Shown here: positions 22,222-27,446 of the stretch, piece by piece
Layout of the letters: each line of letters opens with the position of its first letter
Position numbering within the stretch: the stretch's first letter is position 1
Notes under the pieces: model-generated
Database searches by the model: none
What the model saw: the letters and a program-made list of their open reading frames with translations, nothing else
Told to the model about the DNA's origin: nothing
Source of the DNA: Nitrospira sp.
GTDB taxonomy: Bacteria; Nitrospirota; Nitrospiria; Nitrospirales; Nitrospiraceae
Assembly (NCBI GenBank): GCA_031315995.1
Contig: JALDRG010000005.1
Span: 242,432-306,431 of the forward strand
DNA length: 64,000 nt
Reading direction: 5' to 3'
Position numbers and translations under genes: made by a program

Positions 22222-22307
22222 GGGCAGGTACCCAAGTGGACAAAGGGGGCAGACTGTAAATCTGCTGCCTTATGGCTTCCAAGGTTCGAATCCTTGCCTG
22301 CCCACCA
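22222..22307 (+). tRNA. tRNA-Tyr (anticodon GUA)
   Basis: An 86-nt class II tRNA with a long variable arm: acceptor GGGCAGG with CCTGCCC, anticodon loop containing GTA, T arm GGTTCGAATCC and an encoded CCA. Confidence 0.97.
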
Positions 22308-22444
22308 AACCGAGCCTGTACAGCCGGATCACGCATAAAAGTGTTTCCGGCCGTGACGATAATGACGGCGATGTGACGGTGCGCAGGCGTGTGTGGGTTA
22401 GCATGTGGCCGGCGGATCGTGAAGTGTTGGTAGGTTCACCGTGG

Positions 22445-22519
22445 GCGGGCGTAGCTCAGTGGTAGAGTTCCAGCCTTCCAAGCTGGCTGTCGTGGGTTCA
22501 AATCCCATCGCCCGCTCCA
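22445..22519 (+). tRNA. tRNA-Gly (anticodon UCC)
   Basis: A 75-nt cloverleaf: acceptor GCGGGCG with CGCCCGC, anticodon stem CCAGC/GCTGG around loop CTTCCAA (anticodon TCC), T loop TTCAAAT and an encoded CCA. Confidence 0.97.
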
Positions 22520-22592
22520 ATCCAGCCTGTTCTACCGCGGGTAGGTACAGAGGATATACGGGCGAATCAAGACTGAAGACTGTGAATTGAGG

Positions 22593-22668
22593 GCCCACGT
22601 AGCTCAGTTGGCAGAGCACGTCCTTGGTAAGGACGAGGTCACGCGTTCGATTCGCGTCGTGGGCTCCA
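22593..22668 (+). tRNA. tRNA-Thr (anticodon GGU)
   Basis: A 76-nt cloverleaf: acceptor GCCCACG with CGTGGGC, anticodon stem CGTCC/GGACG around loop TTGGTAA (anticodon GGT), T loop TTCGATT and an encoded CCA. It lies directly upstream of tuf, the classic tRNA-tufB arrangement. Confidence 0.97.
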
Positions 22669-22760
22669 GGTCAGGCAAGGGACTCTCGCTGGGTGCCTGA
22701 ATATTCTGAGTATACGGTTGGGGTTCTGGGAAAACAGCGTTCTGAGAAAAGGAGTGAATC

Positions 22761-23966
22761 ATGGCGAAGGCGAAATTTGAGCGACGTAAGCCCCACGTGA
22801 ACATCGGGACGATTGGGCACGTGGACCATGGCAAGACGACGCTGACCAGTGCGCTGACCAAGATCTGTGCGGATCGCGGGATGGCGAAATTTGTGAGCTA
22901 CGACGAAGTGGCGAAGGCGAGCGAGAGTCAGGGGCGCCGGGATGCCAGCAAGATCATGACCATCGCGATCAGCCACGTCGAGTACGAGACGGACAACCGG
23001 CACTATGCGCACGTTGACTGCCCGGGCCACGCCGACTATGTGAAAAACATGATCACCGGCGCCGCGCAGATGGACGGGGCGATCCTGGTGGTGAGCGCGG
23101 CCGACGGCCCCATGCCGCAAACGCGGGAACATATTTTGTTGGCGCGCCAAGTCGGCGTCCCCTACATCGTGGTGTTTCTGAACAAGGCGGACAAGGTCGA
23201 TGACAAGGAATTGCTGGAGCTGGTCGAGCTGGAGGTGCGCGAGTTGCTGTCGAAGTACGATTTTCCGGGCGACAAGATTCCGATCGTGCAGGGGTCGGCG
23301 CTGAAGGCGGTCGAGGGGGATCAGGGGCCCTTGGGCGTCCCGTCGATTTTGAAGTTGCTGGAGGCCGTGGATACCTATATCCCGACGCCGACCCGGGCCA
23401 TCGACAAGCCGTTTCTGATGCCGATCGAAGACGTGTTCACGATCAGCGGGCGCGGCACGGTGGTGACGGGGCGATGCGAGAAGGGGATCGTGAAGGTCGG
23501 CGACGAAATTGAAATCGTCGGCTTGCGGCCGACGCAGACGACCATCGTGACGGGCGTGGAAATGTTCCGCAAGGTGCTCGATGAAGGGCAGGCGGGCGAC
23601 AATATCGGGGTGTTGCTGCGGGGCACGAAGAAAGAAGACGTGGAGCGCGGGATGGTGTTGGCGAAGCCGAAGAGTATCACGCCGCACACGAAGTTCAAGG
23701 CGGAGATCTATGTGCTGACCAAGGAAGAGGGGGGCCGCCATACGCCGTTCTTCAACGGGTACCGGCCGCAGTTCTATTTCCGGACGACGGATGTGACGGG
23801 GATCGTGACGTTGACGCCGGGGGTGGAAATGGTCATGCCGGGGGACAATGTGACGGTGACGGGCGAGTTGATCAGCCCAATTGCGATGGATCAGGGGTTG
23901 CGGTTTGCGGTTCGAGAGGGCGGCAAGACCGTCGGCTCGGGCGTCGTCACGGAAATTCTAGCGTAG
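22761..23966 (+). CDS. tuf: Elongation factor Tu, copy 1
   Basis: A GTPase that delivers aminoacyl-tRNA to the ribosome; 401 residues with AAAGGAG before the ATG. G-motifs: GHVDHGKTT (P-loop), [12 protein letters not shown] (G3) and NKADKVDD (G4). Domain 3 contains [11 protein letters not shown], with the normal paired glycines at 324-325. It is downstream of the Tyr-Gly-Thr tRNAs, as in many bacteria. The nucleotide sequence is almost identical to the second copy at 39009, with two silent differences that I can see (ATT/ATC near codon 20 and CAT/CAC near codon 119) plus a GGG triplet present only here. Codons are richer in third-position G and C than in nearby fusA. Confidence 0.99.
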
Positions 23967-24054
23967 TGAGGGGGAGGCGTTAAGCGTCAACACGTTTCGG
24001 GTCTGGAGGTGATCCTCTTCTCCCGCGTTACGTTGCACGCTTCACGGATACGAC

Positions 24055-24204
24055 ATGCGAGATATCATTGACTTGGCCTGCACGGTCTGCAAGCAGCGAA
24101 ATTATTCGACCCGCAAGAACAAAAAGAACGATCCGGATCGTTTGGAGCGAAATAAGTTCTGTAAGTTCTGCCGGAAACACATCGCTCACAAGGAAGTGAA
24201 GTAA
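24055..24204 (+). CDS. rpmG: 50S ribosomal protein L33, zinc-binding form
   Basis: 49 residues, too short for the ORF track. The sequence opens [19 protein letters not shown] and has two CxxC pairs (C9, C12 and C36, C39), so this is the zinc-binding (C+) L33. It ends KHIAHKEVK. It lies between tuf and tRNA-Trp, as usual ahead of secE-nusG. The Shine-Dalgarno near the ATG is weak (GGA), while a perfect GGAGGTGATC lies 41 nt farther upstream. Confidence 0.95.
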
Positions 24205-24263
24205 GAATTTCTGTGCTGAGTGGGGCATGGCCCTTGGCTCGGCAGCGCTCATGTTCCGGATGG

Positions 24264-24338
24264 AGGGGCATGGTGTCAACGGCAGCACATCGGTCTCCAA
24301 AACCGAGAGTCTAGGTTCAAATCCTAGTGCCCCTGCCA
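24264..24338 (+). tRNA. tRNA-Trp (anticodon CCA)
   Basis: A 75-nt cloverleaf: acceptor AGGGGCA with TGCCCCT, anticodon stem TCGGT/ACCGA around loop CTCCAAA (anticodon CCA), T loop TTCAAAT and an encoded CCA. It sits between rpmG and secE, the canonical place. Confidence 0.97.
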
Positions 24339-25783: not shown

Positions 25784-26476
25784 ATGGGAAAGAAGATGAC
25801 CGCGGCTCAAGAAAAGATCGAGCCCAGGTTCTATGGGTTGAAAGAGGCGGTCGAAGCCGTGAAGCAGGCCGCTTTTGCCAAGTATGATGAGTCTGTCGAT
25901 TTGGCGATTCGATTGGGGATTGATCCCAAGCGATCGGATCAAATGGTTCGTGGGACGACCGCGTTGCCGCACGGAACCGGAAAGAAGCTTCGCGTGCTCG
26001 TGTTTGCCAAGGGAGAGAAGGAGCAAGAGGCCCGACAGGCCGGCGCCGATTTCGTGGGATCGGATGATTTGATGGAGAAGATCAAGGGTGGGTGGATGGA
26101 GTTCGATTGCGCGATCTCCACGCCGGATCTCATGGCCTCGGTCGGTAAGTTGGGAAAGGTGCTCGGTCCTCGAGGTTTGATGCCCAATCCGAAAACCGGT
26201 ACGGTCACCTTTGAGGTCGGCAAGGCTGTCGGTGAGATTCGGAGGGGCCGTGTCGAGTTCAAGGTTGAGAAAGCCGGAATCGTGCAAGTGCCTGTCGGCA
26301 AAGTGTCGTTTGATGCTGAGAAGTTGTACGACAATGCGCAGGCGGTGTTGGAATCTGTGGTGAAAGCGAAGCCGTCGTCCTGTAAGGGCCGGTATCTCAA
26401 GAGTGTGACGATGTCGAGCACCATGGGTCCTGGGGTGAAGCTGGATCCGGTGGCGTTGTCGAAGTTGTGGAGTTGA
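25784..26476 (+). CDS. rplA: 50S ribosomal protein L1
   Basis: 230 residues, normal length. Landmarks are [13 protein letters not shown]-like [20 protein letters not shown], the core [20 protein letters not shown] and the family signature [21 protein letters not shown]1 forms the ribosomal stalk that guides deacylated tRNA from the E site. In many bacteria it also represses its own operon by binding the rplK leader; a candidate leader structure is noted upstream. AAGGAG precedes the ATG. The L10 gene begins 31 nt after the stop. Confidence 0.98.
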
Positions 26477-26507
26477 GAACCGGCAGGTTCTCAGTAAGGG
26501 GAGAGGC

Positions 26508-27446
26508 ATGAAGAAAGAAGAGAAGGCAACAGCGATCGCGGAGTTGACGGAAAAGTTCGGTCGCGCCCGCTTGGCTATTCTGACGGAGTGCGCCGGGATG
26601 CCCGTCAATCAAATGACCGAGTTGCGCAGGCAGTTGCGCGGTGCCAAGGCTGAGTACTGCGTCATCAAGAATACCCTGGCCGTTCGTGCCTCGTCCGGCA
26701 CGATTCTCGCGGATGCAAAAGCCCATTTCAAGGGGCCGACCGGGTTGGTGATTGGGTATGACGATCCGGTCCTTCCGGCGAAAATCTTGCGGGATTTTAT
26801 TCAGGCTGAGAAGCGGGCCGAGAAAATCAAGGTCACGGTTGGAGTGTTAGAGGGCAAGCTGGTGCAAGCGGCCGATCTTGCGGCCATCGCACAGTTGCCC
26901 AAGAAGGAAGTGCTGATCGCGATGTTGCTATCGGCCATGCAAGGTCCGATTCGCGGCGTGGTCTATGCGTTGAGCGGAGTGTTAAGCAAGTTTGTGCGAG
27001 TCATTGCAGCCATTCAGGATAAAAAGAAAGGGGAGGGCGACATGTCAGCAGCAGAAGCAGGAACCAAGTTGTCACAAGATGAATTGATCAAGGCAATCGA
27101 GGGTATGAGCGTGTTGGAATTGGCCGACTTGGTCAAGGGATTGGAAACGCGCTTTGGCGTGACGGCAGCGGCCCCGATGGCCATGGCGGCACCGGCCGGC
27201 GGTGGAGCGGCGGCAGCGCCGGCAGAGGAAAAGACATCCTTTGACGTGGTTTTGGTCAGTGCTCCGGCTGATAAGAAGATCCAGGTCATCAAGGTTGTAC
27301 GCGAGCTCACCAGCCTGGGGCTCAAGGAAGCCAAAGATTTGGTCGAAGGCGCGCCGAAGCCTGTCAAGGCGGGTGTGACCAAGGAAGAGTCCGACACCAT
27401 GAAGAAGAAGCTCGAAGAGAGCGGTGCGAAAGTCGAAATCAAGTAA
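26508..27446 (+). CDS. rplJ: Ribosomal proteins L10 and L7/L12 in one uninterrupted frame
   Basis: A single 312-codon frame encodes a complete L10 (residues 1-178, [20 protein letters not shown], ending near [14 protein letters not shown]). It then runs without a stop codon into a complete L7/L12 (from residue 179, [20 protein letters not shown]). Normally rplJ and rplL are separate genes, one L10 holding four to six copies of L7/L12 on the stalk. Here a read-through product would carry one L12 covalently attached. Free L12 could come from an internal start at 27042, preceded by GGGGAGG. L10 and L12 look intact and normal in length. I checked one-base indels around the AAAAA/GGGG runs; none gives a clean stop before the L12 ATG. 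A sequencing error nevertheless remains possible. Confidence 0.9.
27042..27446 (+). CDS. rplL: 50S ribosomal protein L7/L12 from an internal start
   Basis: 134 residues, nested in frame within the L10-L7/L12 fused ORF. The Shine-Dalgarno GGGGAGG lies 5 nt before the ATG, so it can be translated alone. Layout: N-terminal dimerisation domain ([20 protein letters not shown]) that binds the L10 C-terminal helix, an Ala/Pro/Gly hinge ([16 protein letters not shown]), and the C-terminal domain ([36 protein letters not shown]) that recruits translation factors. Both forms sharing a frame would produce one anchored and several free copies. Confidence 0.85.

Follow-up and report, generated by a model that had tools for sequence, protein, structure and literature searches.

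L10 and L12, among the most conserved of all bacterial proteins, make up the mobile stalk by which the ribosome recruits translation factors. In the standard rplJL operon, which yields the L10(L12)4/6 stalk, the two proteins are encoded by separate cistrons: in the 12 unfused relatives used here as outgroup loci, a stop codon, a spacer of 24-60 nt and a Shine-Dalgarno (SD) sequence precede the L12 start. The number of L12 dimers bound to L10 varies from two to four among species and is set by how long the C-terminal part of L10 is (PMC4592705).

Genes that yield a long product and, from an internal start, a shorter one are known from complexes other than the ribosome. SctQ/YscQ, a component of the type III secretion C-ring, is encoded by a fused two-domain gene in which an internal in-frame start additionally gives the C-terminal domain by itself; the shorter and the longer product assemble together, and the flagellar counterparts, FliM and FliN, are two proteins (PMC4295842). 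Similarly, an experimentally demonstrated internal start within Cas8 and Cas10 genes gives rise to Cas11 and thereby supplies a small subunit that is present in multiple copies (PMC11899642 and references therein).

The Nitrospira locus described here, part of a 64,000-nucleotide stretch of DNA (hereafter, the window), shares with the standard operon the gene order nusG-rplK-rplA-rplJ-rplL-rpoB-rpoC and the same two proteins, with a full-length L10 helix and a complete L12. It differs in that both proteins are encoded in one frame, and it does not qualify as a two-cistron rplJL operon because the stop codon that defines the latter is absent, both in the window and in all 104 fused genes that we read. 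The layout is that of SctQ, namely, a single open reading frame (ORF), the C-terminal part of which exists as a gene of its own in relatives, with a conserved internal start codon and a ribosome-binding site under nucleotide-level selection, but the proteins are unrelated, and the internal product, established by experiment for SctQ, is deduced from the sequence here. The Cas8/Cas10-Cas11 genes likewise combine two products in one gene but belong to an unrelated complex that is neither ribosomal nor a stalk. A gene fusion of L10 and L12 with an internal L12 start appears to be undescribed, in agreement with the preliminary description of this DNA, which knew of no bacterial example: our literature search, which covered neither subscription journals nor protein databases (where automatic entries may list the fused protein), found no paper on an L10-L12 fusion.

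The fused frame and its genomic context

Translation of the window confirms the initial observation that rplJ has no stop codon before rplL: the two genes form a single ORF of 312 codons, and the same open frame is found across the order (Table 1). Both parts are recognized as complete proteins. The NCBIfam equivalog model of L10 matches residues 4-173 with 161 bits (cut-off 85; model positions 1-167 of 168), and that of L12 matches residues 186-312 of the same protein with 150 bits (cut-off 84.4; model positions 2-125 of 125). Pfam assigns residues 1-97 to L10 and recovers both the N-terminal dimerization domain and the C-terminal domain of L12. NCBIfam has no model for a fused L10-L12 protein, and no chain in the PDB spans both L10 and L12.

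Table 1. Features of the fused rplJ-rplL locus, in window coordinates
Feature	Position	Strand	Basis
Shine-Dalgarno for the L10 start, AAGGGGAG	26496..26503	+	Sequence
Fused rplJ-rplL ORF, 312 aa	26508..27446	+	Same frame in ~184 genomes
L10 (uL10) part, 178 codons, complete	26508..27041	+	Pfam/NCBIfam; ends like L10 of unfused relatives
L10 C-terminal helix, residues 149-173, expected carrier of L12 dimers	26952..27026	+	AlphaFold2, low confidence here
Predicted disordered linker (residues 174-189) from L10 helix to L12 N-terminal domain	27027..27074	+	AlphaFold2
Internal Shine-Dalgarno AAAGGGGAGG, within the coding sequence, codons Lys-Gly-Glu-Gly	27027..27036	+	Conservation across the order
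L12 (bL12) part, 134 codons plus stop; internal ATG at 27042-27044	27042..27446	+	ATG in 104/104; Pfam, NCBIfam
L12 dimerization domain (Ribosomal_L12_N), residues 190-236	27075..27215	+	Pfam
L12 C-terminal factor-binding domain, residues 245-312	27240..27443	+	Pfam

The L10 part is 178 residues long in 95 of the 104 fused genes, its end matches that of L10 in unfused relatives, and the window's copy can be aligned to L10 of T. maritima as far as residue 179/180. Judged by these alignments, L10 is fused with its predicted L12-binding C-terminal helix retained in full. An AlphaFold2 model (mean pLDDT 63), usable for domain limits but not for docking of the tethered L12, comprises the L10 domain, the helix, the disordered linker and the L12 domains. 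A domain search of the genome, whose assembly is 93.6% complete, found a single L12 domain, so that a second rplL elsewhere is unlikely.

The fused rplJL gene lies within the series secE, nusG, rplK, rplA, rplJL, rpoB and rpoC. Upstream, at 22222-24338, genes for tRNA-Tyr, -Gly and -Thr precede tuf, and a tRNA-Trp gene is located between tuf and secE. Only 31 nt separate rplA from rplJ, and a search for an Rfam L10 leader upstream of rplJ found none. A strong hairpin at 26473-26494, TTGAGAACC-GGCA-GGTTCTCAG (-12.8 kcal/mol, z -2.2), overlaps with the stop codon of rplA, directly ahead of rplJ; its stem is not obvious in the sequences of other families.

Distribution of the fusion

The preliminary description proposed that the junction be compared among related Nitrospirota, and this comparison places the fusion throughout one order. 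All genomes of the same genus with an intact match have it. In the family, 156 of the 175 genomes match by our own count from the match table, 150 of these over the full length (1-312) without a stop, in all 22 genera, and the other 6 as fragments only. The 19 genomes without a match are uninformative because the eight that were tested also lack the neighboring rplA (L1), which points to absence of the whole region from these records and not to unfused genes. In the phylum sample, the fusion is present in 34 of 34 genomes from three additional families of this order, which brings the total to about 184 species genomes in four families, several of them single-contig assemblies; none of these genomes with an intact locus lacks the read-through. 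The 104 loci that were read base by base, the window's copy included, are all fused, with an ATG at the junction and no stop between L10 and L12.

Outside the order, the picture is different. In the phylum sample, the other orders of the class and the rest of the phylum show stops or two separate matches. When the remaining single-match genomes of the phylum were rechecked, the joined ones all contained at least one stop, and four held pieces of L12 only. Beyond the phylum, we surveyed about 490 matched genomes from three groups as well as single loci; among the matches listed for the Bacillota, Pseudomonadota-type (Mariprofundus) and Desulfobacterota-type samples, none was full-length and free of stops. 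For some genomes, the search output indicated a long frame common to both genes, but those with both genes that were read directly all had stops between them, so this measure of frame length reads through stops. Among 80 named L12 loci from many phyla, fusions occur only in four, deposited as Nitrospirae or Nitrospiraceae, and 73 are unfused, with L10 upstream; L138 (Nitrospira sp., at a contig edge), one of the 80, has an in-frame junction. Rare independent fusions may exist elsewhere. We read this distribution as reflecting a single fusion event on the stem lineage of the Nitrospirales, without reversal in the genomes seen.

Several unfused loci deserve separate mention. In L131, whose deposited name is 'Nitrospira sp. 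isolate Ru_enrich_NS', L10 and L12 are unfused, and L12 resembles those of the outgroup loci L093 and L098; this is probably a mislabeled record, judging by that resemblance. In the L12 of one Nitrospirota MAG (L183:2581-3357) and one Actinomycetota MAG (L127:2764-3378), in both cases unfused to L10, the dimerization domain is preceded by a long N-terminal extension rich in Lys and Glu.

The internal Shine-Dalgarno sequence

In the window, the last L10 codons, Lys-Gly-Glu-Gly-Asp, double as an SD sequence, AAAGGGGAGGGCGAC-ATG. The L12 ATG is present in all 104 fused genes, with AAAGGR(G/A) ahead of it. The predicted duplex between the internal SD and the anti-SD has a mean energy of -10.0 kcal/mol, which surpasses 98% of the other in-frame windows in strength; in the three genomes of the most divergent family, it is weaker, at -7.0 kcal/mol. 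When the junctions are shuffled synonymously one by one, the result is less striking, with a mean of 18% of the shuffles as strong, because the Lys-Gly-Glu-Gly peptide is itself purine-rich; the case therefore rests on conservation across species.

This conservation is evident at the nucleotide level. The 5-codon minimum of synonymous diversity in the ORF falls at codons -9 to -5, directly before the L12 start. At the first Gly of the junction, 95 of 95 codons are GGA or GGG; the corresponding share at 16 further conserved Gly positions is 15-76%. A tree of 101 distinct sequences gives this codon 9 third-base changes, with 0 between purine and pyrimidine (6-24 at the 16 other sites). The Lys codon at -5 is AAA in 96%, with 2 changes on the tree, whereas AAA accounts for 7-52% at 23 other Lys sites, which show 6-24 changes, and the overall AAA background is 26%. 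In family f3, one codon is lost and the residues are changed (KEDSM/KEEPM), yet the nucleotides give the canonical AAGGAGG. Most of the ORF is more structured than the 15 nt ahead of the internal ATG (median rank of the latter in the top 5%). Together, these comparisons make a strong case that the internal SD is constrained at the nucleotide level and that the SD and the ATG are under selection. The internal L12 start suggested in the preliminary description thus finds support in the order-wide ATG, the nucleotide constraint on the SD, the lack of a second L12 gene and the full length of L10.

Probable origin of the fusion and alternative explanations

We consider it probable that a single ORF gives both an L10-L12 fusion and, via the internal start, free L12, and that it derives from one fusion, on the stem lineage of the order, in which the old rplL ribosome-binding site was retained. 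Under this scenario, the stop and the spacer between rplJ and rplL would have been lost once, on the stem of the Nitrospirales, and the former rplL ribosome-binding site would have been kept within the coding sequence. Initiation at the L10 start would then produce the fusion, and initiation at the internal ATG, in the same frame and on the same mRNA segment, would produce free L12. Given the single frame, each L10 carries one L12 unless the protein is cleaved.

Such cleavage is the substance of one alternative, in which the fusion is made and then cut by a protease near the junction, so that mature L10 and L12 are separate and internal initiation adds extra L12. The linker is predicted to be disordered and is rich in Lys, Gly and Glu, so clipping is possible, and separate L10 and L12 are universal elsewhere. 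We nevertheless deem this course of events unlikely: there is no conserved cleavage motif, with family junctions varying among KGEGDM, KEDSM, KEEPM, KGMGEM and KTQKGEGEM, and the conserved junction element is the SD, that is, a nucleotide feature. Moreover, cleavage alone would give a 1:1 ratio, so the internal start would still be required.

Another alternative is that the loss of the stop was a tolerated accident without benefit, the L12 tail on L10 being inert and free L12 being the functional form. A single origin could indeed reflect a neutral event that became fixed, and two genes suffice in all unfused relatives. Single-base changes could, however, bring back a stop in the linker, and none has done so in about 184 species; besides, the L12 N-terminus of the fused genes is ~5 residues longer than in most outgroups (19 vs 14 from Met to the M[ST]VL motif), as expected for a linker fitted to the fusion. 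Accordingly, we give this explanation little credence.

It is very improbable that free L10 arises by programmed frameshifting into an off-frame stop ahead of the L12 ATG: the window does have an off-frame TAA, close to a run rich in A and 22 nt upstream of the ATG, but other families of the order (L061, L072) lack this stop and conservation of a slippery site was not seen, and the possibility was rejected. Removal of the stop by a sequencing or assembly error, for which nothing speaks except the homopolymers near the junction, has a negligible chance of being correct and was rejected as well, the fusion recurring in independent genomes: as the preliminary description had argued, the open junction is no sequencing slip, being open likewise in independent species and in single-contig assemblies, and no in-frame stop or indel was seen at 27020-27042.

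Returning to the preferred scenario of a fusion with a nested L12 start, we infer that both products are synthesized, that the fusion stays uncleaved and that the stalk consists of one tethered and several free L12. The fusion alone supplies one L12 monomer per L10, and the internal start would therefore be an economical source of the remainder. The tethered L12 N-terminal domain could pair with a free L12, positioned at the end of the L10 helix, and free L12 would occupy the remaining dimer sites of that helix. The fusion may have a role in setting stoichiometry. With somewhat less assurance, we favor the view that every ribosome of the Nitrospirales would contain one covalently attached L12 that pairs with free L12 and seeds assembly, with the ratio of initiation at the two sites setting the L10:L12 ratio.

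Implications

For annotation, gene callers likely report the locus as one gene, so that the free L12 product is hidden. Here, an essential gene is nested in another, and its start site would be maintained by selection inside another protein. The fusion also provides a natural covalent anchor, which allows one to test the need for several free L12 copies. By implication, one L12 per ribosome may be permanently attached to its anchor. The order in which the fused pair is fixed includes the nitrite-oxidizing Nitrospira, and the finding widens what a ribosomal stalk can look like.
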